From positions 124,001-188,000 of the forward strand of contig NZ_FOVE01000002.1 of assembly GCF_900115065.1 (NCBI RefSeq): DNA of 64,000 bases. The letters are read 5' to 3'. The position numbers and the translations under genes were made by a program. Origin of the DNA: Formivibrio citricus (GTDB lineage: Bacteria; Pseudomonadota; Gammaproteobacteria; Burkholderiales; Chitinibacteraceae). Below are positions 38,041 through 56,958 of this stretch, piece by piece. Positions within the stretch are counted from its first letter, which is position 1; each line of letters begins with the position of its first letter. Below the pieces are notes generated by a model, which worked only from the letters and a program-made list of their open reading frames with translations, made no database searches and was not told where the DNA came from.

Positions 38041-39654
38041 TCACTCTACCAGTTCAACCGCCGCCTTCGACAAATACCAGCGCTTGCCGCTCATGACCAT
38101 CACGCCCGGCAGGTCGATTTTCATGCCGTTGGAAAGTGCATGGTTCTTGTTTTGCGGAAAGCGCCACTCCTGTCCGTTCTTGCGCACGACCAGCACCGGG
38201 TTGTTCGCATCGGAATGATCTACGCTGGTTTGTGCTCCGGCCTTGGCGAAAGCGCTTTCCGCTTCCACGTACAGGGTCGAGGTGGCCTTTTCCAGGTCGA
38301 GGCCGAGATGCCGGGCCATGGTTTTGGCCACGTCGGTGTTTTCGATCACGCCGGTGGGGTGGGTGCGTTTCGGCGTCCAGGCATACCAGACCACGTCTTC
38401 GCCCGTGTGGCCGTTGGTGGTGAAGCCGATCTTGGCGCGGCGCGCCAGGATCGGGCCGGTGGCATAGTTGATGTCCGCGGCCTTGGCCTTGACCACGCTG
38501 GCGACTTCTTCGTCGCTCAGGTCGTCGATCCCCCATTCCTCGGCGATTACCTCGCGCACGTTGCTGCGATCCTTGTTCAGCTTGAGGCCGATGCCTTCGC
38601 CGGTCAGGCGCGCGCGGCGCAGCGGTTCGACGAATACGAAGAGCGGTTCTTTGTCATAGCTCTTGGATGTGGTCTGGTTGCCCATGGTGATGCCGGAGTT
38701 GCCGTGGTCGGAAAGGGCAAAGACGGCGGTGTGGCCATCCTTCCTGGCAAAGGCCAGCGCTTCGGCCACGGCGCGGTCGAAGGCCAGAACGTCGGAAACG
38801 ATCCCGGCCGGATCGTTGGCATGCGCGGCCCAGTCGATCTTGGAGCCTTCAACCATCAGGAAAAAGCCGTTCGGGTTTTTCGAGAGCAGCTCGATGGCCT
38901 TGCGCGTCATTTCGGCGAGCGACGGTTCTTTGGCCGGATCGCGGTCGAGCTCGTATTTCATGTCCTTGGCGGCAAACAGCCCCCAGACCTTGTCGCGCTT
39001 GAGCGAGGCCATTTCGGCCGGTGTATTCACGATGGCATAACCCTGTTCTTTCAGCGAGCCGATCATGTCTTCCCTGTCCTTGCGGTTTTCCGCCAGCAGA
39101 TACCGGTATCCGCCGCCGAAAACGACGTCGATGCGGTTGTAGACCTGCTGTTCGCTGAGATTGTCGTAGGCCTTGCGCGAGGGATCGTGCGCCGAAAAGT
39201 CGGCCGGCGTGGCGTGCATGATTTCGCTGGTGGCCACGAGGCCGGTGGATTTTCCGGCGAGCCGTGCGGCTTCCAGAATGGTGGCGACCGGGCGGTGGAC
39301 TTCGTTTTTTGGTGTGGCCGGTACGCCGGGCATGCCGACCTTGGCCGGTAGTACAGCGACGTTGCCGGTCTGGCTCTTGAAACCCGTGGCGAAAGCCGAG
39401 CCGGCCGGCGCGGAATCGCCGATCGGTGTGTCCGCGTTGTAGGTGCGCACGAGCCCCGCTGCCATTTCGTCGAGCGCCAGCGGTTTGCCGCCCTGCACCC
39501 AGCGCGCCAGCGTGGTTCCGCCCACGCTCATGCCGTCGGGGATCAGGATGATGACGTTCCTGATGTCGGGTATCGGGGGTGGGGCTGCTTGCGTACCGAG
39601 CGCAAGGCTGCAAAAAACGGAACCGATCAAAAGCTGGAGGGTGCGGTTTTTCAT
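38041..39654 (-). CDS. phoA: Alkaline phosphatase (PhoA family)
   Basis: A 537-residue periplasmic phosphomonoesterase. A signal peptide ends near residue 23 (LGTQA-APPPI). Metal and catalytic motifs are present: IILIPDGMSVGG with the first metal aspartate, nucleophile Ser81 in GDSAPAGSAFATGF, FLMVEGSKIDWAAHANDP and FALSDHGNSG and TNGHTGEDVVWYAW with metal histidines. The protein is longer than E. coli PhoA. The start at 39654 has AGGAACAAGCCTCG upstream. I found no Pho box near it. Probably cotranscribed with the small gene before it. Confidence 0.92.
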   Translation of the reverse strand: MKNRTLQLLIGSVFCSLALGTQAAPPPIPDIRNVIILIPDGMSVGGTTLARWVQGGKPLALDEMAAGLVRTYNADTPIGDSAPAGSAFATGFKSQTGNVAVLPAKVGMPGVPATPKNEVHRPVATILEAARLAGKSTGLVATSEIMHATPADFSAHDPSRKAYDNLSEQQVYNRIDVVFGGGYRYLLAENRKDREDMIGSLKEQGYAIVNTPAEMASLKRDKVWGLFAAKDMKYELDRDPAKEPSLAEMTRKAIELLSKNPNGFFLMVEGSKIDWAAHANDPAGIVSDVLAFDRAVAEALAFARKDGHTAVFALSDHGNSGITMGNQTTSKSYDKEPLFVFVEPLRRARLTGEGIGLKLNKDRSNVREVIAEEWGIDDLSDEEVASVVKAKAADINYATGPILARRAKIGFTTNGHTGEDVVWYAWTPKRTHPTGVIENTDVAKTMARHLGLDLEKATSTLYVEAESAFAKAGAQTSVDHSDANNPVLVVRKNGQEWRFPQNKNHALSNGMKIDLPGVMVMSGKRWYLSKAAVELVE

Positions 39655-39697
39655 CGAGGCTTGTTCCTGTGAAGGTAGATGGGGAGGCTTGGGTGAA

Positions 39698-39922
39698 TCA
39701 CTTCGCGGCACCGCAGATCAGCGCGTCGATGGCCTGTGCGCGCGGAATGTGGGCGTTGACGTGTTTGTAGGCGTAGCGCACACCGGGCCTGAGCTGGTCG
39801 GCGTAGGTCATGGGCGCAAGCGCGGCGCGCAGTGCGGGCTCTCCGCCGGGATAGCGGTCCGCGTAATAGCGGATGTGCAGCTCCTGGATTTGCAGAGCCA
39901 TTTCCCTGGTCAGACTGAACAT
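39698..39922 (-). CDS. Small conserved-looking protein of unknown function
   Basis: A 74-residue soluble protein, rich in charged and aromatic residues (ELHIRYYADRYPGGEPALRAALAPMTYADQLRPGVRYAYKH). Its ATG follows GAGGTGAAGC, a good binding site, and its stop lies 43 bp before phoA, so an operon with phoA is likely. I do not recognise it. A shadow frame is possible but the binding site and placement favour a real gene. Confidence 0.55.
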   Translation of the reverse strand: MFSLTREMALQIQELHIRYYADRYPGGEPALRAALAPMTYADQLRPGVRYAYKHVNAHIPRAQAIDALICGAAK

Positions 39923-40234: not shown

Positions 40235-42676
40235 ATGAGTCTGCGCCATCGCATCGTGTTCCTCGTAGCCCTGACGTTCGTGGCGATTGCCGCCATCGGC
40301 GGCTACAGCGTTATCCAGTCCCGGAAAAACGCGTCCAACGTAAAAACCGTGACCGAGGGCGTTGTGCCCAGCGCGCTGGCTTCGGCCGATCTGGTGGCGT
40401 TGCTCAAGGAAGTGCAGCTCGCCACGATGACGCTGGCGAGTGCGCCGGACCAGACGCTGGCCGAGGAAGCCAGGGAAAAACTTGCGGCTCAGAAAACCCA
40501 GCTCAAGGACGGGCTCGACCTGCAATTCAAGCAGGCTACGGGGCAGGCCCAGCAGGGGTTGATCGAGCAGACCCGCGAGAGCCTCGACAACTACTTTGCG
40601 GCCATCGACGAGATGGCGCAGCTCAAGCTCGCAGGCCAGACCGATCTGGCGCAGGCGGTGCTGTTTGCCAGCGTGGCGCAGTACAAGCGCGAGATGGAGC
40701 AAGTGATCGATACGCTGCGCATTGAAAAGAACCGCAGCAAGGATGAAGCCATCACGGCCCTGAACGAGAATCTGGCCGGTGCCGTGTCGGCACTGTCGAT
40801 GGCGACCGTGCTGGCTATCGTGGCGCTGGGTGCGGCCGGGACGCTGCTCTACCGCCAGATTGTGCGGCCGGTCGGCACCATGCAGTCGTTGATGACCGAA
40901 ATCGCGACCAGCCAGGATTTCACGCGCCGTCTGCCGGTTGAGCGCATGGACGAGATCGGCCAATCGACCGTGGCCTTCAACGCGATGATCGAGAAAATCC
41001 AGGAAAGCTCGGAGCAACTGAAGCAGAAGACCACCGACATCCAGACCATGCTGCAGAACATTCCGCAGGGCATCCTGACGATTGCCGACGGCAACAAGGT
41101 GCACCCGGAATATTCGGCTTACCTCGAAACCATCTTCGAAACGCGCGACATCGCCGGGCGCGACATGATGGCGCTGGTGTTTGCCGATACCAACCTCGGC
41201 GCCGATGCGCTGGCGCAGGTCGAAGCCGCTGCCGGCGCCTGTATCGGCGAAGACTGCATGAACTTCGAGTTCAACCAGCATCTTCTCGCCGGCGAAGTCG
41301 AAAAGCGCATGCCCGATGGCCGCGTGAAGATCCTCGATCTGAACTGGTCGCCGATCACCAACGATGCCGACACGATCGTGCGCCTGATGCTGTGCGTGCG
41401 CGATGTGACCGAACTGCGCAAGCTGGCCGCCGAAGCCAACGAGAAGAAACAGGAGCTGGAAATCATCGGCGAGATTCTCGCGGTCAGCCAGGAGAAGTTC
41501 CACGACTTCATCGCCGGCGCGCTCAAGTTCATCGACGAAAACGAACTCATCCTGCACCAGTATCCGGAGCAGGACGCGCAAGCCATCGCGCAACTCTTCC
41601 GCAACATGCACACGATCAAGGGCAATGCCCGTACCTATGGCCTGCAGCACCTGACCAACCTCGTGCACGAGGCCGAACAGACCTACGACGAATTGCGCGG
41701 CGCTCATCCGGATATCGCCTGGGATCAGGGCCTGTTGCTGGAAGAGCTGGCCGGCGTGCGCGATGCCGTTGAGCGCTATGCACGGATCAACGAAGTCAGC
41801 CTGGGCCGCAAGGGGCCGGGCCGCCGCGGCAGCGTGGAACGCTACCTGATGGTGGACAAGGAACAGATCCAGCAAACGATCCACCGCCTGGAAACGGTCA
41901 ATACCGGCAACCTGCACGAACTCGTTGCCGCACGCGACGCGGTGCGCAAGACGCTGCGCTTGCTCGGCACGGAGCCGCTTGGCAAGGCGCTGGCCGGCAT
42001 CCTTGCCTCGCTCCCGTCCCTGGCGAAAGAGCTCGGCAAGAGACCGCCCATGATCCGGATCGAGGACCACGGCTACGTGCTGCGCAACCAGATATCCGGC
42101 GTGATCAAGAATGTGTTCATGCATCTGCTGCGCAATTCGCTCGATCATGGTCTGGAAAGCAAGGAAGAACGTCTGGCGCAGGGCAAGTCCAAGGCCGGTT
42201 TGATCGATCTGGAAATGAATGTGGCCGATGGCCAGTTGCAGATCAGGTTGAGCGACGACGGTCGCGGGCTGGCTTTGGCCCGTATCCGCAAGACTGCCAT
42301 CCAGAAAGGACTGATCCGCGCCGATGAACACCTCGGCGACGAGGACATCGCCCGCCTGATCTTCCGCCCCGGTTTCTCGACTGCCGAAAAGGTGAGCGAA
42401 ATCTCCGGCCGCGGCGTGGGCATGGACGCGGTGCAGGATTTCGTCAAACGCGAGCACGGCAAGATCGAGATCCGCTTCCTCGATAACGCTATCGGCGCTG
42501 ACTTCCGCCGCTTCGAGACCGTGGTGCTCCTGCCGGAAAGCAGCGCCTTGTATGTCGAGGGCCGCGAAACGCTTTATGTCTACGATTTGCGCGAGATGGC
42601 GAAGGAAGCCGAGGCAAGCGAAGCCGACGTGGCCGGGTCGCCGGTTGCCGGCAAGCCCCAACTGCGCGTGGTTTGA
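40235..42676 (+). CDS. Membrane CheA-like hybrid sensor kinase (HAMP-PAS-Hpt-HATPase)
   Basis: An 813-residue kinase. Membrane segments lie near residues 6-28 and 183-205 with a mostly helical periplasmic part between. A HAMP domain (206-258, with RQIVRPVGTMQ and DEIGQSTVAFNAM) and a PAS-like domain (268-395) follow. An Hpt-like module carries His459 in NMHTIKGNARTYGL. The CheA-type ATPase has HLLRNSLDHGLE (630-640), DDGRG (674-678) and SGRGVGMDAV (724-733). The CheW-like domain that normally ends CheA is absent. The start at 40235 has GGGGA seven bases upstream; an in-frame TTG at 40220 is less likely. First gene of a six-gene operon. It probably phosphorylates the CheY two genes downstream. 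Confidence 0.85.
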   Translation: MSLRHRIVFLVALTFVAIAAIGGYSVIQSRKNASNVKTVTEGVVPSALASADLVALLKEVQLATMTLASAPDQTLAEEAREKLAAQKTQLKDGLDLQFKQATGQAQQGLIEQTRESLDNYFAAIDEMAQLKLAGQTDLAQAVLFASVAQYKREMEQVIDTLRIEKNRSKDEAITALNENLAGAVSALSMATVLAIVALGAAGTLLYRQIVRPVGTMQSLMTEIATSQDFTRRLPVERMDEIGQSTVAFNAMIEKIQESSEQLKQKTTDIQTMLQNIPQGILTIADGNKVHPEYSAYLETIFETRDIAGRDMMALVFADTNLGADALAQVEAAAGACIGEDCMNFEFNQHLLAGEVEKRMPDGRVKILDLNWSPITNDADTIVRLMLCVRDVTELRKLAAEANEKKQELEIIGEILAVSQEKFHDFIAGALKFIDENELILHQYPEQDAQAIAQLFRNMHTIKGNARTYGLQHLTNLVHEAEQTYDELRGAHPDIAWDQGLLLEELAGVRDAVERYARINEVSLGRKGPGRRGSVERYLMVDKEQIQQTIHRLETVNTGNLHELVAARDAVRKTLRLLGTEPLGKALAGILASLPSLAKELGKRPPMIRIEDHGYVLRNQISGVIKNVFMHLLRNSLDHGLESKEERLAQGKSKAGLIDLEMNVADGQLQIRLSDDGRGLALARIRKTAIQKGLIRADEHLGDEDIARLIFRPGFSTAEKVSEISGRGVGMDAVQDFVKREHGKIEIRFLDNAIGADFRRFETVVLLPESSALYVEGRETLYVYDLREMAKEAEASEADVAGSPVAGKPQLRVV

Positions 42677-42697
42677 ATTCAGCAGGAAAGTGACACG

Positions 42698-43678
42698 ATG
42701 AACAGCAACAAAATGGTAGTCAGCAAGGTTCTGGTGCTCGACGGCGCCGGTCTGCCCCCCGATAGTCTGAAAGCCTTTTGCGAGGAATGCGGCTTGGTGG
42801 CGATCAAACCGCAACAGGGCGATGCCGACAGCGTCATGACGATCCTCAAATCCAACGTCGATCTTGGCGGCATCCTGCTGCACGAAAACTACGGCGGCAA
42901 GACGGGGCAGGGGCTGGAGTTGGCGCGAGCCATCCACGCCTCGCGGCCCGAGCTGCCGCTGTTCCTGCGCCGCGATGCCGTATCCAGCGTGGCCGGGCTG
43001 GCCGAGCAGGACGCAGCGATGTTCCGCTGCGCCTATACGCTGGCCGACCTGCAACTGCTCAAGGCCACGCTGGAAGCCTCGATTTTCAGCCGGGTGTATC
43101 CCAACGATCTGGTGCGCGGCATTACCGAAATTACGCGCGGTGCGCTGCAGCCCCTGTTCCGCGAATGCGATATCGACGTCGAAACGCCTTACCTCGTGAA
43201 GGACCGCATCATCTACGGCGAAGTGTTCACCATGATGGCCATCGACAGCCACTGGTGCCGCGGTTACATGATGCTGCAGGCGGCAGAGGAAGCCATGATG
43301 GCGTTGATAAGCCGCGAGGCGGGTATCGACGAGGGCGAGACGATGACCTTCCGCGAGCTCAACAACGTGCTGGGCGAGGCCACCAACCTCGCTTGGGGCG
43401 CATTCAAGAGCCGCTACGTTTCCCAGGATGTGAACCGGTGCCAATGCCAAACACAGGTGCCGATCATCATCAATCACCAGCGTCGCTATATCTCGTTCGG
43501 CTCGGAAGATCCGCAGCTTTGCATCAAATACACGCTGCGAGAACGGAACCGGCCCGATGTGGCACCGGTTCCGTTGTTCCAGCGCTTCGTTTTCAACCTG
43601 AACTGGTCGCCGGATGAATTCCGGGAAAACCCGACCGTCGAATCGCTGGTTGAATCCGGCGAGCTCGAACTGTTCTGA
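42698..43678 (+). CDS. Pseudo-receiver fused to CheX-like phosphatase domain
   Basis: A 326-residue protein. Residues 8-125 resemble a receiver (KVLVLDGAGLPPDSLKAF, GILLHENYGGKTGQGLELARAI) but the phospho-acceptor position is His62 or Glu63 and only one acidic residue is kept at the metal site, so it should not be phosphorylated. Residues 130-285 look like the CheC/CheX fold; the catalytic pattern E-x2-N is Glu220 and Asn223 in TFRELNNVLGEATNLAWG. The C-terminus is VESGELELF, nearly the same as that of the second CheX-like protein in this operon. Likely role: dephosphorylation of the neighbouring CheY. The ATG follows AGGAAAGTGACACG. Confidence 0.7.
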   Translation: MNSNKMVVSKVLVLDGAGLPPDSLKAFCEECGLVAIKPQQGDADSVMTILKSNVDLGGILLHENYGGKTGQGLELARAIHASRPELPLFLRRDAVSSVAGLAEQDAAMFRCAYTLADLQLLKATLEASIFSRVYPNDLVRGITEITRGALQPLFRECDIDVETPYLVKDRIIYGEVFTMMAIDSHWCRGYMMLQAAEEAMMALISREAGIDEGETMTFRELNNVLGEATNLAWGAFKSRYVSQDVNRCQCQTQVPIIINHQRRYISFGSEDPQLCIKYTLRERNRPDVAPVPLFQRFVFNLNWSPDEFRENPTVESLVESGELELF

Positions 43679-43712
43679 TTTTTTGCCGTTTCAAAAATAA
43701 AGGAGTTTTCTC

Positions 43713-44078
43713 ATGGCACAAGTCCTCGTAGTCGACGATTCCAGCACCGTGCGCAACGAAGTTTGCGATTTTCTCAAAGCCAACGGCCTGACCGTGGTTC
43801 CTGCCGTCGATGGCAAGGACGGGCTCGACAAGCTCAAGGCCAATTCGTCGATCAAGCTCGTGGTCAGCGATGTGAACATGCCCAATATGGACGGCCTCAC
43901 CATGGCCGAGAAGATTCGCGGCGAGCTGAAGAATTCGTCGGTCAATATCATCATGCTGACCACGGAAAACAGCCCGGCCATGAAAGAACGCGGCAAGGCC
44001 GCCGGTATCAAGGGCTGGATCGTGAAGCCTTTCAATGGCGCTGCGGTTATCGGCTCGCTGAAGAAATTGATTGCCTGA
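43713..44078 (+). CDS. CheY-like single-domain response regulator
   Basis: A 121-residue receiver with all key residues: Asp8 and Asp9 (VVDDSS), phospho-acceptor Asp53 (VVSDVNMPNMDG), Thr83 or Thr84 (MLTTE) and Lys105 (VKPF). No output domain. It is the only intact receiver in the operon and the likely phosphate sink for the upstream kinase. AAAGGAG lies before the ATG. Confidence 0.93.
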   Translation: MAQVLVVDDSSTVRNEVCDFLKANGLTVVPAVDGKDGLDKLKANSSIKLVVSDVNMPNMDGLTMAEKIRGELKNSSVNIIMLTTENSPAMKERGKAAGIKGWIVKPFNGAAVIGSLKKLIA

Positions 44079-44097
44079 TTTTGGCTGAAGGAAAGTG

Positions 44098-44883
44098 ATG
44101 GACTGGTCGGTAAGCAGTTTTGTATGGCTCGGCGCGGGAATCGGGCTGGGCATGATTCCCCTGGCGTGGAAGCTCGCTGCACAGCGCCGGGATTTTCAGC
44201 ATAAGCTTGATGAGGCGCGCAGGCTGGCCGATGCCTTGTCCGGTCACATTCCCGCCGAAGAGGCCGAGGCGCGCCTGGCGGACGTTCGTGCCGAAGCCCA
44301 GGCGCTGCGCGATGAGTTGCTCGGGCAAGCGGCCGGGCATGCCGGGGCGTTGGCCGCGGCGCTGGAGCAGGCCGCCAGCGAAGGCGAAGATCGCCTGCAG
44401 CAGGCCCGCCACGAACACGCTCAGGAGTTGGCCCGTCTGCGCACCACGCTGGAAGCGGAACACGCCTCGCTGCAGCAGGACATCGAATCGCTGCTGGGCA
44501 TGGTCAGGACCGTCGAGCGCTGGCACGACGAAATGCAGTCCATCCTTACCAACAACCGCGAGTTGAAGCAGCAGAACGACGAGTTCTCGCGCATCATCAA
44601 GAACGTGGTGATGCTGGCGCTCAATGCTTCGATCGAAGCGGCACGGGCCGGCGAGCACGGGCGCGGTTTCGCGGTTGTGGCCGACGGGGTGCGGGAGCTG
44701 GCGCTGTCGTCGTCCAATTGGGCGCAGAAGTACAAGCAGAACCTCGACAAGAACGATCTGGTCACGACGACAACCTTCCAGGACATGCAGGCCAGCGGCA
44801 ACATGATCCGCACGGCGGTGTTTGGGCTGAAGGCTGCCAACGACAAAATAGGTACAACGATCATCGGTGCAGGTGGCCTATGA
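44098..44883 (+). CDS. Short membrane-anchored MCP-like signalling protein without sensor domain
   Basis: A 261-residue protein. One membrane segment (residues 6-26) is followed by a long predicted coiled coil (31-165) and the chemoreceptor hairpin tip (167-202) with [38 protein letters not shown] normal MCP cytoplasmic bundle is far longer and a periplasmic sensor is missing, so it may be a scaffold or input platform. No methylation-site regions or pentapeptide tether are evident. A GTG three bases upstream is an alternative start. Its stop overlaps the next start (ATGA). Confidence 0.82.
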
Positions 44884-45449
44884 TCGGTGCCAATGCTGGC
44901 GTGGCGCTCGAAAAACTGTTCGAGCGCGCCATACTGGACAACGCTGCCACCGGGGCGGAGCAGCGCTGCGCGGTGGCGCGCAACCATGGCGTTGCAGTCC
45001 AGGACAAGGCGGCGAACCGGCCGCTGGTTGTCCTCAACATTTCTTCCTACCTGTTCCGCATCGTGGCCCTGTTCGAATTCGGCACGGATGCGCGAGCCAT
45101 CGAGCAACTGGCGCGGGCTACACGCAGCCCGGCCAAGCTGGAAGGGCAGGCCTTGCGCGATGCCTGTGCGGAATTTGCCAACATGCTCTGCGGCGCGGTC
45201 AACCGCAGCCTGTGCAAACAGTTCCGGCATGTCGGCATGTCGACGCCGTTTGTTCTGGAAAATACCTGCGCGCAATACCTCGCCATGCTGGAGCCATCGC
45301 TGACGCAATCGTTCACCGTGAGTGTCGATGGTGCCGAATGGTTCGGGCTGACGGTATGCACCTGTACTGCTGACGGCATCGCGCTGGATTTTTCGGCGGA
45401 CGAGGTTGTTCAGGAAGAGGCCATGAGCGGCGAGTTGGAGTTTTTCTGA
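44880..45449 (+). CDS. CheX-like CheY-phosphatase
   Basis: A 189-residue CheC/CheX-type protein. The signature D-x3-E-x2-N is Asp94, Glu98 and Asn101 in [19 protein letters not shown]. It has one such helix, as in CheX. The C-terminus is AMSGELEFF, shared with the pseudo-receiver CheX protein upstream. It should hydrolyse the phosphate of the CheY gene product. It overlaps the MCP-like gene by four bases and the next gene by one. Confidence 0.75.
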
Positions 45450-46009
45450 TGACTGAATTGGCTAAGGGCGAGGCGGACTGGGAAAAGGCCGTTTATTCGA
45501 AGACCGGCAAGGCGCTCGAAGAGCTTGCCGAACGGCGCTACGGGCTGAGGGCCAAGGCCCGGCAATTGCTGGTGCTGCTGGACGGCAACCGTCCGCTGGG
45601 GGCGTTGTCCGGCATGATGCCCTCGCAGGAATTGCGGGGGTTGCTGCACGATCTTCGCGAAGGCGGCTTCATCGAGCGCCAAATCGCTGGCGGGCCACCA
45701 AAGGCCATCCAGCCCATTCAGGTTTTTCCGGCGGAGCATTCAAATCTCATTGCAGAGCAAGCGCCCGAACCGCCGCTTGATCCCGTGCGGCTTACCCGCA
45801 CCAAAGCCTACCTCATCGAAACCAGCCAGCAGCATCTCGGATTGATGGCTGCAAAATTGCAGCAGGAAATCGCACAGACGGACGATGCGACGCAACTTCG
45901 TTCTGCGCTCGCTCACTGGAATATGGCGATCCGCGAATCGCTGGCTGGCTCGGATGTTGCCAGTGCTTGCCTGAGCCATGCTCATGAACTGATAGGCTGG
46001 AAACAGTAA
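45449..46009 (+). CDS. Unknown protein, last gene of the chemosensory-like operon
   Basis: A 186-residue soluble protein. Residues about 30-75 have the pattern of a winged helix (KARQLLVLLDGNRPLGALSGMMPSQELRGLLHDLREGGFIE). The region after residue 115 is helical. No recognised family or catalytic motif. Its ATG overlaps the stop of the CheX gene (TGATG), so it is translationally coupled and is very probably part of the same system. Confidence 0.7.
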   Translation: MTELAKGEADWEKAVYSKTGKALEELAERRYGLRAKARQLLVLLDGNRPLGALSGMMPSQELRGLLHDLREGGFIERQIAGGPPKAIQPIQVFPAEHSNLIAEQAPEPPLDPVRLTRTKAYLIETSQQHLGLMAAKLQQEIAQTDDATQLRSALAHWNMAIRESLAGSDVASACLSHAHELIGWKQ

Positions 46010-46121
46010 ATTCCAGCCCGCCCATCTCTGATTCCGGGTAGTCGGTCATGCGGGCACTGCCATGCTCGGCTCACCCGTGTCTCCATTCGTTTTGCCGTGC
46101 ATCCCGGCCATTGGCACACTC

Positions 46122-46142
46122 CCGCCATCTTGGAGATGGCGG
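46122..46142. other. Strong hairpin after the chemosensory-like operon
   Basis: A 9 bp perfect stem CCGCCATCT / AGATGGCGG with a 3-base loop, 113 bp after the last stop codon. It has no T run, so it is a transcript-end or RNA-stability hairpin at best. Confidence 0.45.
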
Positions 46143-46149
46143 CTCGGTC

Positions 46150-46242
46150 GGCCCTGGAGCAATAGCCGGCATGTACATGGAAGTACGTGAGGCTTCCGAG
46201 CCTCGCCCGCCCGCCAGATGCGAAGACGCAACGGTCTGATGA
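46150..46242 (-). repeat. Intergenic repeat, diverged left part (copy D), reverse orientation
   Basis: Read on the minus strand, 93 bp match the left two thirds of the repeat: CATCAGACCGTTGCGTCTTC, GCATCTGGCGGGCGGGC, GGCTCGGAAGCCTC, CATGTACATGCCGGC. The right end is unrecognisable. It ends about 15 bp before the putative sia promoter -10. Confidence 0.65.
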
Positions 46243-46262
46243 AATGGGCTCTAAGTTATAAT
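46234..46262 (+). promoter_or_regulatory. Putative siaA promoter
   Basis: A perfect -10 TATAAT (46257-46262) lies 36 bases before the siaA ATG. The -35 region at 17 bp spacing (GTCTGA) is weak and falls in the end of repeat copy D. Confidence 0.45.
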
Positions 46263-46297
46263 TGCAACTTGATATATTGAGCCTCGCAGGAAAAAGG

Positions 46298-48292
46298 ATG
46301 GCACTCTGGCGTTTCGGGTTGAGGGCTAAAGCGATATCGGCGCTGTTGCTTGCTTGCCTGCTGGCGATGTTGCCGGCAGGTTTGATTGGCTGGCAGTTAT
46401 TCGAGCGGGTACGCAATCATTTCGGCGAAGCCTACGCGGTCAATTTCACGCTGCTCAAGCGTCAAAGCATCCTGGCGCCGATCTCCCGCGAATTGGCGCT
46501 TTCCCGGCGGCTTGCCGATTCGGTGGTTGCCATTCAATGGTTGCAGGATGAGAACAATCCTGAAAAAAGGGCGCTGTTCTTCAAGGAGGCCGAGAGATAC
46601 CGCAAGGATTTTCGCGACCATGCCTATTCCATCGCCAGCGTGGGTAGCCGGAGCTATTACGCCAACGATAACAGCAAACCCTACAGTGAACAGCCCCGGT
46701 ACAACCTGAGTCGGGACAATAGTGGCGATTCCTGGTTTTTCAGTTCACTGGCGCGCAACGAAGATTACAACATCAACGTTGATTATGACCGCGTCTTGCA
46801 GGTGACGCGTGTCTGGTTCAATGTCCTTGTGCGCGATGGCGAACGCAAGCTTGGCGTCGCTGGGGCCGGCATCGACCTGAGCAGTTTTCTCAAGGATTTC
46901 ATCGCCAGCAGCGAACCGGGCGTCGCTTCGATCGTCATCAATCAGGCCGGAGCCATCCAGGCGCATGGCGACGAACGCTTGATTGCCTACAACACCGCGG
47001 CCAGCGATGCCGGCGCGAGCCAGACCCTGGCAGGGCTCCTGCCGGAAGGCGAACAGCGCGGCGCATTGGCAGAAGCGATGGGAAAGGCGTTTTCCCAGCC
47101 AGGGAAAGTATTCACATTGCATGTCTCGCTGGATGGCCGGGAGCAATTGCTCGCCTTGTCCTACATACCGGAGTTGAAGTGGCATGTCGTCACTGCAGTG
47201 GATTTGCAGACGGCGCAGGTGCTGGACAAGACCTGGACCAATGCCGCTGTCGCAGTGTTCGCCGCATTGCTGACTTTTTTGCTGGTTGCTTTCGCCTGGG
47301 CAGTGGAGAGGCTGGTGCTGCATCCCCTGAACAAGCTGAAGCTTTCGGCTGCTGCCATGGCGCAGGGCGATTTCAATGTGTCCCTGCCGCCCCCCTCGCA
47401 GGATGAGCTGGGTGATTTGAGCCGGGCTTTCGGTGTCATGGCTGACCAGGTTCGCCGTAATACCGAAGAGCTTGAAAACAAGGTCCTGGCCCGCACGCAG
47501 GCGCTTGAAGCTGCAAACATGGAAATGCGGCGCGCTCAGCAGAAAATCGGGGATTCTCTCGACTATGCCAGCCTTATCCAGCGCGCTACGCTACCCGATC
47601 AACAACTGAAACAATCATTGGGACGGCATCACTTCGTCCTCTGGCGTCCGCGCGATGTGGTGGGCGGCGATTTTTACGTTTTCAGGGCGGAAGGCGAGCG
47701 CTGTCTGATCGGCGTGGTAGATTGTGCCGGGCATGGCGTTCCGGGCGCGTTGATGACCATGCTGGCGCGATCGGCGCTGGATAATGCAACGAATCGAGTC
47801 GGGATTGAATCGCCTGCGGCGATCCTTGAACAGACAGACGAGTCGATCCGTAGCATGATCGGCCAGTGCGACTTTCCGCGGGCGATTGCGACCAACATGG
47901 ATACCGGGCTGGTCTATGTCGATCGGTCAAGGAACATCCTGCGTTTCGCCGGTGCCAAAATTGGTTTGTACTGGAGTGATGGCCGCGAAGTCGAAGAGAT
48001 TAAAGGCGTGCGCCGGGCGATCGGAGACCGTCGGCGGGGATGCTATGCCGACACGGAAATCGCCGTGCGGCCCGATGCGACATACTATCTGGTCACCGAT
48101 GGCTTCCTCGATCAGGCTGGCGGCGAACTGGGCTATGGCTTTGGCAATACCCGCTTTACCCAGCTGCTTCTGCAGCATGCGCGCTTGCCGATGGAGGCGC
48201 AGGCCGCGGCGCTGGACCGGGCGCTGGACGATTACCGTGGGGAGTGTCCCCAGCGGGACGACATCACGATATTATCTTTCCGATTCGACTGA
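46298..48292 (+). CDS. siaA: SiaA-type membrane PP2C (SpoIIE) protein phosphatase
   Basis: A 664-residue membrane phosphatase. Membrane segments lie near residues 11-32 and 315-337 with a Cache-like periplasmic sensor between. A HAMP domain (338-390) and a coiled segment lead to the PP2C domain (about 440-664) with metal motifs VVGGDFY (Asp458), VVDCAGHGVPGALMT (Asp475), YLVTDGFLDQ (Asp601) and QRDDITIL (Asp654/655). In Pseudomonas aeruginosa SiaA dephosphorylates SiaC. The start at 46298 has GCAGGA upstream; an in-frame TTG at 46262 is less likely. First gene of siaABCD. Confidence 0.88.
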   Translation: MALWRFGLRAKAISALLLACLLAMLPAGLIGWQLFERVRNHFGEAYAVNFTLLKRQSILAPISRELALSRRLADSVVAIQWLQDENNPEKRALFFKEAERYRKDFRDHAYSIASVGSRSYYANDNSKPYSEQPRYNLSRDNSGDSWFFSSLARNEDYNINVDYDRVLQVTRVWFNVLVRDGERKLGVAGAGIDLSSFLKDFIASSEPGVASIVINQAGAIQAHGDERLIAYNTAASDAGASQTLAGLLPEGEQRGALAEAMGKAFSQPGKVFTLHVSLDGREQLLALSYIPELKWHVVTAVDLQTAQVLDKTWTNAAVAVFAALLTFLLVAFAWAVERLVLHPLNKLKLSAAAMAQGDFNVSLPPPSQDELGDLSRAFGVMADQVRRNTEELENKVLARTQALEAANMEMRRAQQKIGDSLDYASLIQRATLPDQQLKQSLGRHHFVLWRPRDVVGGDFYVFRAEGERCLIGVVDCAGHGVPGALMTMLARSALDNATNRVGIESPAAILEQTDESIRSMIGQCDFPRAIATNMDTGLVYVDRSRNILRFAGAKIGLYWSDGREVEEIKGVRRAIGDRRRGCYADTEIAVRPDATYYLVTDGFLDQAGGELGYGFGNTRFTQLLLQHARLPMEAQAAALDRALDDYRGECPQRDDITILSFRFD

Positions 48293-48304
48293 ACGGGGGC
48301 TGCG

Positions 48305-48847
48305 ATGGAATCAATCGATATTTTTGCGCTGCGCGAGCATTTCAACAGCAGGCAAATCCTGCTCTGCTTCAACGGCCCCATTTCCCGCAGCCTGATCGAG
48401 GAAATCGGCAACGCCCTGAAGAATTATCTGCAGGCGGACAATGCCCAACCCTCGGCTGCCATGGACGTGTTCGGTGTTTATGTCGAGATGACCCAAAACA
48501 TCCGCCACTATGCGCTCGCGCGGGGCTACGACGAAAAAGACAGTTCGGCCACCGTTATCGTTGCACGCGATGCCGAAGGCCGTTATCTGGTCGAAGCTTG
48601 TAACCAGGTGGAAAAGAGCGATGGCGAGGCGCTGCTCGCCAGAATCGAAGAACTCGCAACAATGGACAAGACCGGGCTCAAGGCCGCCTACAAAACCCAA
48701 TTGCGGCTGCCTCGCACCGAAGAAGCCGCCAGCGGGGCGGGACTGGGCCTGATCGATATGGCAAGAAAATCGGTGGAGCCGCTCCGCGGGAGCTTGGCGC
48801 CAGTCAGCACCACGCGCTCGTTTTTCAGCCTGCGCGCGGTTATCTGA
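48305..48847 (+). CDS. siaB: SiaB-family protein kinase
   Basis: A 180-residue protein matching the SiaB type, a GHKL-like kinase that phosphorylates SiaC. The ATP-binding N-box equivalent is YVEMTQNIRHYALARGY; the glycine-rich part is SGAGLGLIDMARKS. Twelve bases after siaA. Assignment rests on both its sequence pattern and its place in the siaABCD order. Confidence 0.85.
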   Translation: MESIDIFALREHFNSRQILLCFNGPISRSLIEEIGNALKNYLQADNAQPSAAMDVFGVYVEMTQNIRHYALARGYDEKDSSATVIVARDAEGRYLVEACNQVEKSDGEALLARIEELATMDKTGLKAAYKTQLRLPRTEEAASGAGLGLIDMARKSVEPLRGSLAPVSTTRSFFSLRAVI

Positions 48848-48868
48848 AATCCCTCTCTGGATGTAACG

Positions 48869-49249
48869 ATGAATGAATTGAACGTTCAAGGAAGCCAATC
48901 GACGCCCTGCATCCGCGGCGATTGGGAGCAAGGAACCTTGGCCATGGAAGGGGATTCCTACCCGGAAAATTCCTTCGAATTCTTCGGTCCGGTCATTGAC
49001 TGGGTCGAACGTTTTCTCAAGGACTCATCCATGCCGTTGAAGCTCGAACTGAAGCTGGTTTACATGAACACCAGCTCGGTCAAAGCGATGATGGACATCT
49101 TCGATCTGCTCGAAGATGCGTACACACAGGGGCGCCAGGTCAGCGTGAACTGGTTCTACGATCCCCGCAACGAGCGGGTACTGGATCTGGCCGACGAGTT
49201 TCGCGAGGACTGCAGTTTCCCCTTCGAGATCGCTGCCGATGTCCGATAA
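48869..49249 (+). CDS. siaC: SiaC-family switch protein (DUF1987)
   Basis: A 126-residue DUF1987 protein. The phospho-acceptor of P. aeruginosa SiaC is Thr68; here Thr68 is also present in VYMNTSSVKAMMDIF. The segment PENSFEFFGPVIDWVERFL is typical. In the known system unphosphorylated SiaC activates the cyclase SiaD. Its 3' end overlaps siaD by 11 bases. Confidence 0.9.
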   Translation: MNELNVQGSQSTPCIRGDWEQGTLAMEGDSYPENSFEFFGPVIDWVERFLKDSSMPLKLELKLVYMNTSSVKAMMDIFDLLEDAYTQGRQVSVNWFYDPRNERVLDLADEFREDCSFPFEIAADVR

Positions 49250-50045
49250 ACCGTCATTGCCGCAGATCGACGCCGAAAAGGAACTCATCCGGCACATCGA
49301 AACGCTGCTGGCCGATCCGGCGCACGAGGGCAACCCGCTGCGCGAGCCGCTTGCACGGTTGCTTGAGCAGAACGCAGGGCAACGGCAGCGGCTGGAACGT
49401 CTGGTCAGGATTTCCGATGGCTATCACTTGCTGTCCAGGGCCAACAGCGAAACCCTGTCGCAGCAATATGACCGCCAGTTGAGACGAGTCGAAAAGCTGA
49501 TGCGAATCTCGGATCGCTACCAGCAAAGCCTGCGGGAAATCAGCGAAGCGCTCAGGGAAGCTTCGTTGCACGATCCTTTGACCAGTCTGGGCAATCGCCG
49601 TTTCCTGATGGAGCGGCTTGGTGAAGAGACGGGGCGCGCAGTCCGCAACAGCACGCCTTACTCCCTCGGCATTATCGATATTGATTTTTTCAAATCCATC
49701 AATGACCGGTATGGGCACGACGCTGGCGACAAGGCGCTATGCGAGGTTTCCTGCGCGATCAGGGATTCGCTCCGCGAATATGACATCTGCGGACGCTGGG
49801 GCGGTGAGGAATTCCTGTTCATCCTGCCCGAGACGCCGCTCGACCTTGCCGTTCAGGTCGCCGAGCGGGTGCGCCTCGGCATCGAGAATATTCGACACGA
49901 CCACATCGACTACCGCATCACGGCCTGCATAGGCGTCACCCTTTATCGGTATGGGGAACACTATTCCGATACGATCAAGCGCGCGGACGAGGCTTTGCGG
50001 CATGCCAAGGAAGCCGGGCGCAACAGGGTAGAGTCCCGTTTATAA
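49239..50045 (+). CDS. siaD: SiaD-type diguanylate cyclase
   Basis: A 268-residue soluble cyclase making c-di-GMP. A helical N-terminal stalk (about 1-105) with repeated VRISDGYHLLSRAN / MRISDRYQQSLRE is the expected SiaC-binding part. The GGDEF domain has DPLTSLGNRRFL and the active site GGEEF at 188-192. An RxxD inhibitory site (Arg179-Asp182) five residues before it is kept, so product inhibition is likely. Last gene of siaABCD, convergent with phoR. Confidence 0.92.
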   Translation: MSDKPSLPQIDAEKELIRHIETLLADPAHEGNPLREPLARLLEQNAGQRQRLERLVRISDGYHLLSRANSETLSQQYDRQLRRVEKLMRISDRYQQSLREISEALREASLHDPLTSLGNRRFLMERLGEETGRAVRNSTPYSLGIIDIDFFKSINDRYGHDAGDKALCEVSCAIRDSLREYDICGRWGGEEFLFILPETPLDLAVQVAERVRLGIENIRHDHIDYRITACIGVTLYRYGEHYSDTIKRADEALRHAKEAGRNRVESRL

Positions 50046-50111: not shown

Positions 50112-51407
50112 TTACAGTGCCACGCGCGCAGCAGGAAAGCGCACGGCGAAGCAGCTGCCCTGACCGGGTTTGCTGTGGATGTGCAGTGAGGCCTGGTGGC
50201 GGGTGATGGCGTGCTTGACGATGGCGAGTCCCAGCCCGGTGCCGCCCGATTCGCGCGAACGGCCGCGATCAACGCGGTAGAAGCGTTCGGTCAGGCGCGG
50301 GATGTGTGCGGGGTCGATGCCGATGCCGGTATCCTCGACGGCGAATTCGGCCCCTTCGGCGCTGCTGCTCCAGTGAATACGGATCGAACCGCCGGCGGGC
50401 GTGTAGCGCACGGCGTTGGAAACCAGGTTGCTCAGTGCGCTGGTGATCTCGCCTTCCGAGCCGAAGAGGTCGGCATGGCAGCCCTGGATCAATTCGACCT
50501 GGTGCTGGCCGTTCGACAGCGCTTCGGCATCGCGGCGCAGTTTATCGAGCAGCGAGGTCATGTTGATGCGCTCGTCGGTCGGGGGCGGCGGAGCGGCTTC
50601 CATGGTCGAGAGCAGCAGCAGTTCCTGCACGATGCGCTGCATGCGGTCCGATTGCTCGGCCATGATGCCGAGGTAATGGTTGCGTTCCTCGGGGTTCAGA
50701 TCCAGCTCGCGCAGCGTTTCGATGAAGCCGTGCAGCACCGTGAGCGGTGTGCGCAGTTCGTGCGATACGTTGGCGACGAAATCGCGGCGCATCTGGTCGA
50801 CGCGTTCGGTCTGCGTGATATCGGTGATCTGGATGAGTTGCCGTTTCTTGCCGTAGGCGATGACGTGCACGGACAGCAGCGCATCGCCGGCGCGCTCCGA
50901 GCGCATTTGCAGCGGGGCGGCGAAATCGCCGGCCGTCAGGTAGTTCAGGAATAGCGGTTGCCGGACGAGGTGGGTGATCGGTTCGCCGATGTCGGTTTGC
51001 TGGTTCAGGCCCAGTTGCTGCTCGGCCATGCGGTTGCACCATTCGATGCGCCAGCCCTCGCCGACGATGATGGCGCCAACCGTCAGCGCCTGGCCCGCGG
51101 CGCCGAAGCGCGCGAGTTCTTCCTGCCAGTAGGCGATCTGGCGGCGCAGGTCGCGTTCGTGCCGGTAGAGGTGGGCAAACGGCTCGCTCCAGACGCCGCT
51201 GCCGACGAGTTCGGTCGCCGGGGACGGATTGCGCGCCCAGCGTTCCAGAGCGATCCATTGCCGAAGATGGTAGGCAAGCTGCAGCAGGAGCCCCAGTACC
51301 AGCGTGGCCCAAGCTGCATGGGCCGACCCGAACAGCCAGACCACGGCGGCGATTGCCAGGGTGAGCAGGGTGTAGCCCAGTGCGCGTACCACGGGGTGGA
51401 AATTCAT
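50112..51407 (-). CDS. phoR: Phosphate regulon sensor kinase PhoR
   Basis: A 431-residue kinase. Two N-terminal membrane segments (about 10-45) are followed by a charged linker, a PAS domain (about 100-200), the His216 phosphorylation site in FVANVSHELRTPLTVLHGF and an ATPase with SNLVSNAVRYTPAGG, VEDTGIGI and GGTGLGLAIVKHA. It senses Pst activity through PhoU and phosphorylates PhoB. It overlaps phoB by four bases. Confidence 0.95.
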   Translation of the reverse strand: MNFHPVVRALGYTLLTLAIAAVVWLFGSAHAAWATLVLGLLLQLAYHLRQWIALERWARNPSPATELVGSGVWSEPFAHLYRHERDLRRQIAYWQEELARFGAAGQALTVGAIIVGEGWRIEWCNRMAEQQLGLNQQTDIGEPITHLVRQPLFLNYLTAGDFAAPLQMRSERAGDALLSVHVIAYGKKRQLIQITDITQTERVDQMRRDFVANVSHELRTPLTVLHGFIETLRELDLNPEERNHYLGIMAEQSDRMQRIVQELLLLSTMEAAPPPPTDERINMTSLLDKLRRDAEALSNGQHQVELIQGCHADLFGSEGEITSALSNLVSNAVRYTPAGGSIRIHWSSSAEGAEFAVEDTGIGIDPAHIPRLTERFYRVDRGRSRESGGTGLGLAIVKHAITRHQASLHIHSKPGQGSCFAVRFPAARVAL

Positions 51408-52105
51408 GATTCCACTTTCTCCGCGCCGCGGAAGCGGTAGCCGGTGCCGCGCACGGTTTCCAGCCGCTTGTGGTGCCCGGTGATTTCAAGCGCGGCGCGC
51501 AGGCGGCGGATGTGGACGTCCACGGTACGCTCCTCGATGAACACGTGGTCGCCCCAGACGCTGTCGAGCAACTGGGCGCGGCTGTAGACGCGCTCCGGGT
51601 GCGTCATGAAGAAAAACAGCAGGCGGAATTCGGTGGGGCCGAGTTCCAGCGGTTCGCCGTTGCAGGTGATGCGGTGCGTGGCCGGATTGATGGCCAGTCC
51701 TTCGATCTCGACCGCTTCACCGGCCAGATGCGGCGCGCGGCGGCGCAGCACGGCGCGTACTCGCGCGATGAGTTCCTTGGGCGAGAACGGTTTGGTGATG
51801 TAATCGTCCGCGCCGGATTCGAGTCCCTGAATCTTGTCTTCCTCGTGCACGCGCGCAGTCAGCATGATGATGGGGATCTCGCGGGTGCGCTCGTCGGCGC
51901 GCAACTTCTTGGCCAGCGCTACGCCCGATTTGCCCGGCAGCATCCAGTCGAGCAGGATCAGGTCGGGCAGTGCGGCGCGAATGGCCGATTCGCCTTCTTC
52001 GGCGCTACCGGCGCGAATGACCAGAAAGCCAGCGTGCTTGAGGTTGATGGCGAGCAGTTCCTGGATCGCCGGCTCGTCCTCGATCACAAGAATGTTCGGG
52101 TTCAA
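51404..52105 (-). CDS. phoB: Phosphate regulon response regulator PhoB
   Basis: A 233-residue OmpR-type regulator that binds Pho boxes. The receiver has Asp53 in LILLDWMLPGKSG; the winged helix has TEFRLLFFFMTHPERVYSRAQLLDSVWG. The only start giving the family N-terminus (MNPNILVIEDEPAIQELL) is a TTG at 52105, preceded by AAGGAG at 8 bases. That TTG overlaps the phoU stop as TTGA. A longer in-frame opening upstream is inside phoU and was rejected. Confidence 0.93.
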   Translation of the reverse strand: MNPNILVIEDEPAIQELLAINLKHAGFLVIRAGSAEEGESAIRAALPDLILLDWMLPGKSGVALAKKLRADERTREIPIIMLTARVHEEDKIQGLESGADDYITKPFSPKELIARVRAVLRRRAPHLAGEAVEIEGLAINPATHRITCNGEPLELGPTEFRLLFFFMTHPERVYSRAQLLDSVWGDHVFIEERTVDVHIRRLRAALEITGHHKRLETVRGTGYRFRGAEKVES

Positions 52106-52800
52106 GATGCGGACTCCTTGAACGCAGGCGGGTTGTTGCGTCCTTCGACGATGTAGATGATGTGCTCGGCGATGTTCTTGGCATGGTCGCCGATGCGCTC
52201 GATGGCGCGCGCAATCGAGATGATGTCGATCGAGGTGGTGATCGTGCGCGGGTCTTCCATCATGTAGGTGACGAGCTGGCGGATCACGGCCTTGAATTCG
52301 GTATCGACCTCGGCATCGCTGCGGATGATCTGGCGCGCTTCTTCGGTGTCGAGCCGGGAGAAGGTGTCGAGCGAGCGGCGTACCATGTCGGCCGCGGCCT
52401 TGGCGATGTGGCGCACGTCTGCGGTATGTGGCGGCAGCGATTTCGGCCCTTCGCCGTGGATGCGCCGCGCGCCCTTGGCGATGCGCTTGGCTTCGTCGCC
52501 GATGCGTTCCAGGTCGGTGACGATCTTGGTCACGCCGAGGATCAGGCGCAGATCGGTGGCTGCGGGCTGGCGCTTGGCGATGACCTGGGCGCACTCGTCC
52601 TCAATCAGTGTCTGGAAGACGTCGATCTTGCGGTCGGTTTCGACGATGTCGGAAACCGTGGAAATTTCCCCCGAGGTGTAAGCCTGCGTTGCGGCCAGAC
52701 ATTGGGCTTCGACCAGCCCGCCCATTTCCAGCACATGGCTGCGCAGGGTGGTGAGCTCGTCGTCAAAAGCGCGGGAAACGTGTTTTTCGAATTCGTTCAT
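52102..52800 (-). CDS. phoU: Phosphate transport accessory protein PhoU
   Basis: A 232-residue PhoU with two repeated three-helix bundles; the metal-binding motifs are DLERIGDEAKRIAKGA and AIERIGDHAKNIAEHI. It links the Pst transporter to PhoR. The start MNEFEKHVSRAFDDEL at 52800 follows AAAGGAACCAAC. It overlaps phoB by four bases and lies 69 bp after pstB. Confidence 0.96.
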   Translation of the reverse strand: MNEFEKHVSRAFDDELTTLRSHVLEMGGLVEAQCLAATQAYTSGEISTVSDIVETDRKIDVFQTLIEDECAQVIAKRQPAATDLRLILGVTKIVTDLERIGDEAKRIAKGARRIHGEGPKSLPPHTADVRHIAKAAADMVRRSLDTFSRLDTEEARQIIRSDAEVDTEFKAVIRQLVTYMMEDPRTITTSIDIISIARAIERIGDHAKNIAEHIIYIVEGRNNPPAFKESAS

Positions 52801-52869
52801 GTTGGTTCCTTTATGGCAATCCTGTGCAGGTTCGGCCAATGTTTTCAGGGATCGGGCGCGGCTGCCTCG

Positions 52870-53652
52870 TTAACCCATGCGACCGGTGATGTAGTCTTCC
52901 GTGCGTTTGTCTTTGGGTTTGACGAAAATATCGTCGGTCTTGCCGAATTCGACCAGCTCGCCCAGATACATGTAGGCGGTGAAATCCGAAACCCGCGCGG
53001 CCTGTTGCATGTTGTGGGTCACGATGGCGATCGTGAACTCCGACTTGAGTTCGTGGATCAGCTCTTCGATGCGGCCGGTGGAAATCGGGTCGAGCGCCGA
53101 GGTCGGTTCGTCGAGCAGCAGCACCTGCGGTTTGACCGCTACGCCGCGCGCGATGCACAGACGCTGTTGCTGGCCGCCGGAAAGGCTGGTGCCGGGCTGC
53201 TTGAGTTTATCCTTGACCTCGTTCCAGAGCGCGGCCTTGGTCAGCGCCCATTCGATGCGGTCGTCCATTGCACTGCGGTTGAGCTTTTCATGCATGCGCA
53301 CGCCGAAAGCGATGTTTTCGTAAATCGACATCGGGAAGGGCGTGGGTTTCTGGAACACCATGCCGACACGGGCGCGCAGCGCGATGGTGTCCACGTTGCC
53401 GTGCAGGATGTTCTCGCCGTCGATCAGCAATTCGCCTTCGGCGTGCTGGCCGGGGTAGAGGTCGTACATGCGGTTGATGGTGCGCAGCAGCGTCGATTTG
53501 CCGCAGCCGGACGGGCCGATGAAGGCGGTGACCTTGCCCTTGTAGATATCCAGATTGATTCCCTTGAGGGCTTGCGCTTTGCCGTAATAGAAGTTCAGGT
53601 TCCGGATGCTGATCTGCGGGACCAGTGCCTGGGCGGAGGATTCGATAGGCAT
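52870..53652 (-). CDS. pstB: Phosphate ABC transporter ATPase PstB
   Basis: A 260-residue ATPase with Walker [14 protein letters not shown], signature [14 protein letters not shown] and Walker [16 protein letters not shown]. The N-terminal [21 protein letters not shown] and C-terminal [14 protein letters not shown] are typical of PstB. Confidence 0.97.
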
Positions 53653-53663
53653 CTTTTATTTCC

Positions 53664-54503
53664 TTAACGTTGCGGGCTGCTTCTGAACATGACGCGGGCG
53701 ATGATGTTCAGGATGAGTACGCCGAGAGTGATGATGAATACGCCGGCCCAGGCGAGTTGCTGCCAGTCGGCGAACGGGCTCATGGCGAACTTGAAAATGG
53801 TGGCCGGCAGGCTGGCCATCGGCTCGGAGAGATTGGTACTCCAGAACTGGTTGGACAGCGCGGTAAACAAGAGCGGGGCAGTTTCGCCGGAAATGCGCGC
53901 TACGGAGAGCAGAATGCCGGTCACGATGCCCGATTTGGCAGAGCGCAGTGTCACCATCAGGATCACCCGCCACTTCGGCGCGCCGAGCGCGAACGCGGCT
54001 TCGCGCAGCGAATTGGGGACCAGCGCCAGCATGTTTTCGGTGGTGCGCACCATGACCGGAATCGCCAGCAGCGCCAGTGCCAGCGCGCCGGACATGCCGG
54101 AAAATTTGCCGGCCTTGGCGACGTAGATCGCGTAGACGAACAGGCCGATCACGATGGAGGGCGCTGAGAGCAGGATGTCGTTGACGAAGCGCGTGACCTT
54201 GCCGAGCCAGCTGCGCTGACCGTATTCGGCCAGGTAGATGCCGGCCAGCGTGGCGAGCGGGGTGGCGATCAGCATTGCCAGGCCCACCATGATGAGGCTG
54301 CCTGCGATGGCATTCTTCAGTCCGCCCGCCTCGCCCGGAGGCGGCGTCATTTCGGTGAACAGCGTGGGCTTGAGCGCGCCAACGCCCAGGTCGAGCACCA
54401 TCCACAGAATCCAGAATAGCCAGAACAGGCCGAAAGCCATGGCTGCCAGCGACATGGAGAGCGCAAAAAAATTGACGGCTTTGCGTTTGGTCGAGAGTTT
54501 CAT
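53664..54503 (-). CDS. pstA: Phosphate ABC transporter permease PstA
   Basis: A 279-residue permease with about six membrane segments. Family text includes [27 protein letters not shown] and the coupling region [28 protein letters not shown]. Six bases after pstC, eleven before pstB. Confidence 0.95.
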
Positions 54504-54509
54504 TGGTTC

Positions 54510-55466
54510 TTACCCGACGTGCTTTCCGCCGGAATTCTTTTCCAGCGAATGCAACAGCAGTTTGGACAGCGAGAGCACGATGAACGTGATCACGAACAGG
54601 ATCAGGCCGAGCTCGATCAGTGCGGCGGTGTAGAGCCCCGGCGAGGCTTCGGCGAATTCGTTGGCGAGCAAGGACGTGATGCTGTTGCCCGGCATGAAAA
54701 GCGACGGGCTTTCGAGCAGGCTCGCATTGCCGATTACGAAGGTCACGGCCATGGTTTCGCCGAGTGCGCGGCCCAGGCCGAGCATCACGCCGCCGATCAC
54801 GCCGACGCGGGTGTAGGGCAGCACCACGTTGCGCACCACCTCCCAGGTCGTTCCCCCGAGGCCGTAGCACGATTCCTTGAGCATGGCCGGGGTCAGCTCG
54901 AACACGTCGCGCATGACCGAGGTGATGAACGGGATGATCATGATAGCCAGAATGATGCCGGCAGCCAGAAGGCCGATGCCGAAGGTCGGGCCGGAAAAGA
55001 GTTCGCCGATGACCGGCACTTCGCCGAGCGTTTCGGCGATCTTGGGCTGCACGTGTTCACCGAACACCGGCGCGAAAACCAATAACCCCCAGATGCCGTA
55101 GACGATGCTGGGAATGCCGGCCAGCAACTCGATGGCGATGCCGAGTGGGCGGCGCAACCAAGTGGGCGAAAGCTCAGTCAGAAAGAGCGCGATGCCGAAG
55201 CTGATTGGCAGCGCGATGACCAGCGCGATCAGCGAAGTCACCAGCGTGCCGTAGATCGGCACCAGTGCGCCGAACTGCTCGGCGGGCGGGTTCCATTCGC
55301 TGCTGGTGAGAAAGCCGAAGCCGAAGGTCTTGATCGAAGGCCAGGCGCTGATGGTCAGGGAAACGATGATCCCGGCCAGCACCAGCAGCGTCAGCATGGC
55401 CACGGCGCGGGTCAGGTTGAAGAACAACAGGTCGCCCAGCTTGCTCTTGGAGGGTGAGTTTTTCAT
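54510..55466 (-). CDS. pstC: Phosphate ABC transporter permease PstC
   Basis: A 318-residue permease with about six membrane segments. Family text includes [36 protein letters not shown] and [28 protein letters not shown]. The start at 55466 ([12 protein letters not shown]) follows GGAACCC. Between it and pstS lies 197 bp occupied mainly by a repeat element. Confidence 0.95.
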
Positions 55467-55489
55467 GGGTTCCGTTTGTCTGGGAAACG

Positions 55490-55616
55490 CTGAACAATTG
55501 CTGCGAAGGCGCATGGCGGCGTCGCGCGGTGCTCGAAATCCTCATGTATTCGCATATACATTGCGGTTTCTGCGCTCCGGGCTCCTTGCCCTGCGTCTTC
55601 TCGCTGACTTGTTCAG
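55490..55616 (+). repeat. Intergenic repeat, copy E (full length), inside the pst operon
   Basis: A 127 bp copy with perfect 8 bp inverted ends CTGAACAA and TTGTTCAG. The core GGTGCTCGAAATCCTCATGT and the CGCATATACATTGCGGTTTC stretch match copies A and B at most positions. It lies between pstS and pstC. Confidence 0.8.
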
Positions 55617-55663
55617 TATTTCCTTTGTAGAGGGCCGGCAACCGCCGGCCCGGGTTGCATAAA

Positions 55664-56719: not shown

Positions 56720-56755
56720 CGGGGAGTCCTTTGTTTGGCTGTTGGTGATGGCGCC

Positions 56756-56810
56756 ACTGTACGAATTGATTGTTACAACAATGTGACATGTTGCAGCGGT
56801 GTGACAGGTG
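56756..56810 (-). promoter_or_regulatory. Pho-box promoter of pstS
   Basis: On the minus strand two adjacent Pho boxes are read: CTGTCACACCGCTGCAAC followed directly by ATGTCACATTGTTGTAAC (about 56807-56772). Each has the CTGTCA/TGTCAC and CTG(T/C)AA-like half-site pair. A -10 TACAGT (56761-56756) follows the box by about 11 bp, the normal spacing for PhoB-activated promoters, with no sigma70 -35 needed. Confidence 0.85.
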
Positions 56811-56958
56811 ATTTTTGCCAACCTCCGACAAAAGGAGGGGGTGAAGAAACCCCGCGAGGTTGTGTGATTCGCGTCGATTTCCCCTCAGCCTTGAAAAGAA
56901 AGTAAAATCCCACCTTTGGTGCAAATCCGGCCGCCCGAGAGCGGCAGAGAAAAGAATC

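Follow-up and report, generated by a model that had tools for sequence, protein, structure and literature searches.

CheW or a CheW-like domain is regarded as the coupler of receptors to CheA, and a cluster of six genes in Formivibrio citricus raises the question of whether a chemosensory pathway can be built without it. If true, a conserved CheW-free pathway would show which chemosensory parts can work without an array. The cluster was located at positions 40235-46009 of the window, the stretch of 64,000 nucleotides analyzed here. All six genes were confirmed on the plus strand, in the order of a membrane kinase, a pseudo-receiver fused to CheX (REC-CheX), CheY, a sensor-less MCP-like protein, a second CheX, and gene 6. 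The intergenic gaps were 21, 34, 19, -4, and -1 bases, and the last two junctions represented overlaps of stop and start codons. The tight packing described in the first-pass annotation of this DNA was thus borne out, but its treatment of the six genes as one unit was not, as gene 6 was not conserved with the core and REC-CheX was optional. CheW and flagellar genes had also been described as missing. This was correct at the locus, where the cluster (40235-46009) contained no CheW, CheR, CheB, or CheD, but not for the rest of the genome, which carried FliM, CheZ, and nine CheW matches. The sigma-70 and terminator scans gave scores not above those of shuffled controls.

Domain organization of the membrane kinase

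The first gene (40235..42676, plus strand) encoded a CheA-type membrane sensor kinase; its reading frame opened at TTG 40220, and the start was placed at ATG 40235. The Pfam domains comprised 4HB_MCP, HAMP, a weak PAS, Hpt, and HATPase_c, with a transmembrane segment after 4HB_MCP. The proposed fusion of sensor and kinase was therefore confirmed, the sensory domains lying in the same protein as Hpt and HATPase_c. The invariant Hpt histidine was found within the motif HTIKGN[AG]R, and the ATPase carried the N box HLxRNxxDHG and the G boxes DDGxGL and SGRGVGMDAV. The best NCBIfam matches over the ATPase were CheA models.

Two hallmarks of CheA, the phospho-histidine of the Hpt (P1) domain and the CheA-type HATPase (P4), were present in the kinase. 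However, it had no CheW/P5 domain, with just a short variable tail after the ATPase, and it possessed its own sensor (4HB_MCP and HAMP), which is not a feature of CheA. The P3 region gave no Pfam match to H-kinase_dim, and the CheA matches reached into the region before the ATPase. No Pfam match to CheW was obtained for the window kinase at E<1. Among 25 members of the kinase family searched with Pfam, HAMP, Hpt, and HATPase_c were detected in 25/25 and a CheW domain in 0/25; a CheW-like domain at the C-terminus was the finding that the first-pass annotation had named beforehand as decisive against its reading. In a survey of CheA homologues, all contained four core domains including CheW (Berry et al., PMC10542144), and the kinase falls outside that definition of CheA because its CheW domain is absent.

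The canonical CheA-CheW-MCP systems (F1-F17, ACF, and Tfp) share with this cluster the Hpt, the CheA-type ATPase, CheY, the MCP hairpin, and the CheX family. In contrast, the kinase here lacks a CheW domain and carries a built-in membrane sensor; CheW, CheR, CheB, and CheD are absent from the cluster; and the MCP-like protein is sensor-less with a shortened signaling domain. The cheA2-cheW3-cheX-cheY3 cluster of Borrelia is similar in combining CheX with a stand-alone CheY, but its kinase is a P1-P5 CheA and CheW lies within the cluster (PMC10703414). The Flm system of Comamonas is likewise a chemosensory-like cluster from a beta-proteobacterium, with biofilm as its output. It belongs to the Tfp (Pil-Chp) class and comprises the CheA-like FlmA, the chemoreceptor FlmB, and the CheW-like FlmC (PMC6391922), and it was rejected as the same system since the window cluster contains no CheW-like protein. 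The earlier remark that no named system of this composition was recognized agreed with the open-access literature, in which no published system of this composition was found; subscription-only papers lay outside the search.

Two CheX proteins with a common C-terminal tail

Both proteins earlier described as CheX-type were recognized, one by Pfam and the other by its predicted fold. REC-CheX (42698..43678, plus strand) contained a Pfam CheX domain at E 1e-10. Its N-terminal part showed a receiver fold in the predicted structure and lacked the phospho-Asp in the alignment, which agreed with its description as a pseudo-receiver. The second CheX (44880..45449, plus strand) was below threshold in Pfam (CheX, 7e-5), and its predicted structure (model pLDDT 87) matched the CheX of T. 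maritima in Foldseek at 1.4e-8. The CheX fold was predicted for both proteins and is also that of the CheX of Thermotoga and Shewanella. The ExxN spacing is the signature of the CheC/CheX family. It was found at E227-N230 in REC-CheX and at E98-N101 in the second CheX; these residues were invariant across the respective alignments, and the two motifs aligned to each other in the profile comparison. By fold and motif, both are predicted to be CheY-P phosphatases.

The two proteins end in almost the same peptide, SGELELF in REC-CheX and SGELEFF in the second CheX. The tails themselves, GELELF (43658..43675, plus strand) and GELEFF (45429..45446, plus strand), were delimited by the tail alignment and a genome pattern search. 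At the fetched loci, a tail of the form G-x-[LI]-[ED]-x-F, mostly GELELF, ended 44/44 second CheX and 32/32 REC-CheX proteins, a count of 76/76 in which close relatives (many of them Pandoraea) are included, as are a small number of loci retrieved twice. The coding pattern GEL/FEL/FF-stop occurred twice in the window genome, both times in the CheX genes of this operon, and the reversed-pattern control gave zero occurrences. This near-invariant GELELF-type tail, common to both CheX proteins, is a new observation.

The C-terminal peptide of CheZ binds CheY. In the window genome CheZ ends in DDLLESLGF, so that it shares with the CheX proteins an acidic tail ending in Phe, a likeness that is short and was judged by eye; unlike CheZ, the phosphatases here have the CheX fold. 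Because the CheZ tail is acidic, ends in Phe, and binds CheY, we propose by analogy that the GELELF-type tail may dock both CheX proteins to one common partner, most likely CheY. As a short docking element, the common tail is open to direct testing.

MCP-like protein, stand-alone CheY and the proposed pathway

The fourth gene (44098..44883, plus strand) encoded an MCP-like protein with one hydrophobic stretch at the N-terminus followed by a coiled coil. No sensor domain was recognized, as MCPsignal was the only consistent match in the family, and the claim that this protein lacks a sensor was upheld. The MCPsignal match spanned only positions 23-118 of the 172 in the profile. The hairpin-tip region was conserved in the family alignment of 18 rows (loci L024 and L030 were left out, with stops within the coordinates tried). 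After the tip lay a family-specific segment, NDLxTTxTFQDxQA, in which N219, D220, T223, T224, F227, Q228, Q231, and A232 were invariant and D229 nearly so. This invariant segment, specific to the MCP-like protein, is likewise newly observed. Its FQD part resembles the FQD helix motif of CheZ. A CheZ active site was not supported here, since no Gln follows four residues after the Asp and there was no Pfam match to CheZ.

The conserved hairpin tip bears on a different explanation, that the module plugs into ordinary arrays, with the MCP-like hairpin joining receptor trimers or binding CheW from other clusters and the kinase providing an auxiliary input to the main array instead of a separate pathway. 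CheW was found in all 19 carrier genomes searched (5-17 matches each), so that CheW from other clusters may act in trans, and every carrier also had FliM. However, the kinase has no CheW/P5 domain, and the MCP-like protein matches the profile only in part and carries a family-specific segment after the tip; we consider this explanation unlikely.

The stand-alone CheY (43713..44078, plus strand), as reported before, was present with intact active-site residues. It had no output domain. In 52 distinct sequences of this CheY family, the active site and the stretch MLTTExspxMKeRGkAxGxkGWIVKPF were conserved. The CheZ-linked CheY of the same genome differed from it in the conserved alpha4-beta5 region, which suggested a conserved output face particular to the module CheY family and a target that may be other than the motor. 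Another reading is an orphan two-component pathway, gene-regulatory or of some other kind, whose MCP-like and CheX proteins are unconnected to chemotaxis or flagella. It would fit the loci, since no flagellar or canonical che gene was recognized beside any cluster at the 17 loci read, but a CheY without an output domain and the presence of FliM in all carriers checked argue against it, and we rate it the least probable of the readings. FliM was found in 19/19 carriers, compared with 267/399 genomes (67%) of the Burkholderiales sample. The association was modest (hypergeometric P ~0.001 with genomes as the unit and ~0.009 with genera, relatedness uncorrected).

The reading we prefer, with confidence slightly better than even, is a compact CheW-less pathway in which a sensor-kinase signals to CheY, with two tail-bearing CheX phosphatases, an MCP-like scaffold, and a motility-related output. 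In this pathway, the kinase would sense through its own periplasmic four-helix bundle, HAMP, and PAS, and its CheA-type ATPase would phosphorylate its own Hpt histidine. The phosphoryl group would then pass from Hpt to the stand-alone CheY, from which the two CheX-family phosphatases would remove it, and their GELELF-type tails, by the analogy with CheZ, would dock both to one partner, most likely CheY. The sensor-less MCP-like hairpin may act as a scaffold or coupling element tethered to the membrane, and the output is probably flagellar motility or a motile-sessile switch. More tentatively, and at somewhat less than an even chance, such clusters could constitute a CheW-free chemosensory class, in which a receptor-kinase fusion signals to CheY, the MCP hairpin acts as a scaffold, and the tails tether the two CheX proteins to one partner. 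The module may have branched off from bacterial chemotaxis signaling in a reduced form.

Distribution of the gene set and its neighborhood

A genome-contig scan gave 43 loci. In per-gene tblastn searches, the kinase, CheY, the MCP-like protein, and the second CheX recurred together as a core, and REC-CheX was found at many loci and undetected at others. Gene 6, which the first-pass annotation had counted in the six-gene operon, did not belong to the recurring set. The main gene orders were kinase-(REC-CheX)-CheY-MCP-CheX and kinase-MCP-CheX-(REC-CheX)-CheY. Near full-length kinases were found in five relatives by genome search. The set, of four to five genes, was scattered among flagellated beta-proteobacteria: about 16 of the 399 Burkholderiales genomes sampled, from some 14 genera, carried it, as did a few other gammaproteobacteria. 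Andreprevotia chitinilytica and Pseudogulbenkiania subflava are among the carriers. The second-CheX profile matched 17/399 Burkholderiales genomes, one of them weakly (2e-8), and 4/369 class-drawn genomes besides the window genome. No recurrent neighbor was found among the flanking genes read at 17 loci. Recurrence in many genera, between unrelated flanking genes, makes the association more than chance. It is a real, conserved and apparently undescribed chemosensory variant, observed in its domain anatomy and conservation, for which we infer the function. A distantly related kinase (41%) was found on a plasmid of Ideonella dechloratans (L109:8004-11663) together with an MCP-like gene and a third gene, of hypothetical annotation. 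No CheY was annotated in this stretch, and integrase and diversity-generating retroelement genes came next.

Gene 6 (45449..46009, plus strand) was coupled to the second CheX by overlapping codons, gave no Pfam or NCBIfam match, and was single-copy in the window genome. It was rejected as a core component because it had no match at the fetched loci and its best congener orthologues adjoin murJ. These closest orthologues (59%) were located upstream of murJ in both congeners (L097:7652-8227 and L098:7703-8236), and gene 6 therefore seems to have moved.

The first-pass account of the operon was sound in part; it left unmentioned a siaABCD operon at 46262-50045, directly downstream on the plus strand. 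This operon consisted of siaA (PP2C phosphatase; 46262..48292; NCBIfam NF038263, 1030 bits), siaB kinase (48305..48847; NCBIfam), siaC (48869..49249; Pfam/NCBIfam), and a siaD-like diguanylate cyclase (49239..50045), the last assigned by its GGDEF in the translation and its position after siaC. The NCBIfam equivalogs of SiaA, SiaB, and SiaC were all matched. A gap of 252 bases (46010-46261) separated gene 6 from siaA. A 9-base perfect hairpin (CCGCCATCT TGG AGATGGCGG) was found in this gap and TTATAAT just 5' of the siaA frame, which suggested that siaABCD is a separate transcription unit.

The siaABCD operon of P. aeruginosa presumably adjoins the che2 cluster. In that species, SiaC activates SiaD in its unphosphorylated form, its phosphorylation being under the control of SiaA and SiaB (PMC8457831). 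The neighboring operon is of the same type as SiaABCD of Pseudomonas aeruginosa, but it does not belong to the conserved chemosensory genes. Such adjacency raises the explanation that the pathway feeds c-di-GMP through siaABCD and controls aggregation or biofilm, rather than the flagellar motor. SiaC was detected in 8/19 carrier genomes and was adjacent to the cluster in 2/8: downstream in the window genome, and in congener G001 as part of a different siaABCD set that lies upstream of the kinase and is divergent to it. At least two adjacent cases of eight would have a chance of ~0.001 under random placement, with both cases being congeners. Against this, 11/19 carriers had no SiaC match, SiaC was on another contig in a third congener, and the 252-base gap precedes siaA here. 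We thus regard a c-di-GMP output as quite improbable, and siaABCD was rejected as a general partner of the module, given SiaC in 8/19 carriers only. It is a neighbor, possibly functionally linked to the cluster, and the motility-related pathway is retained as the preferred reading. The siaABCD-type set of congener G001 (L064:3614-6637) encoded a SiaA-like protein of ~410 aa and contained the only SiaC match of that genome.

In the window, the chemosensory cluster and siaABCD together were flanked on one side by a minus-strand alkaline phosphatase-like gene (38041-39711) and on the other (50112-56821) by minus-strand phoR-, phoB-, phoU-, and pstBACS-like genes, all judged from their translations.
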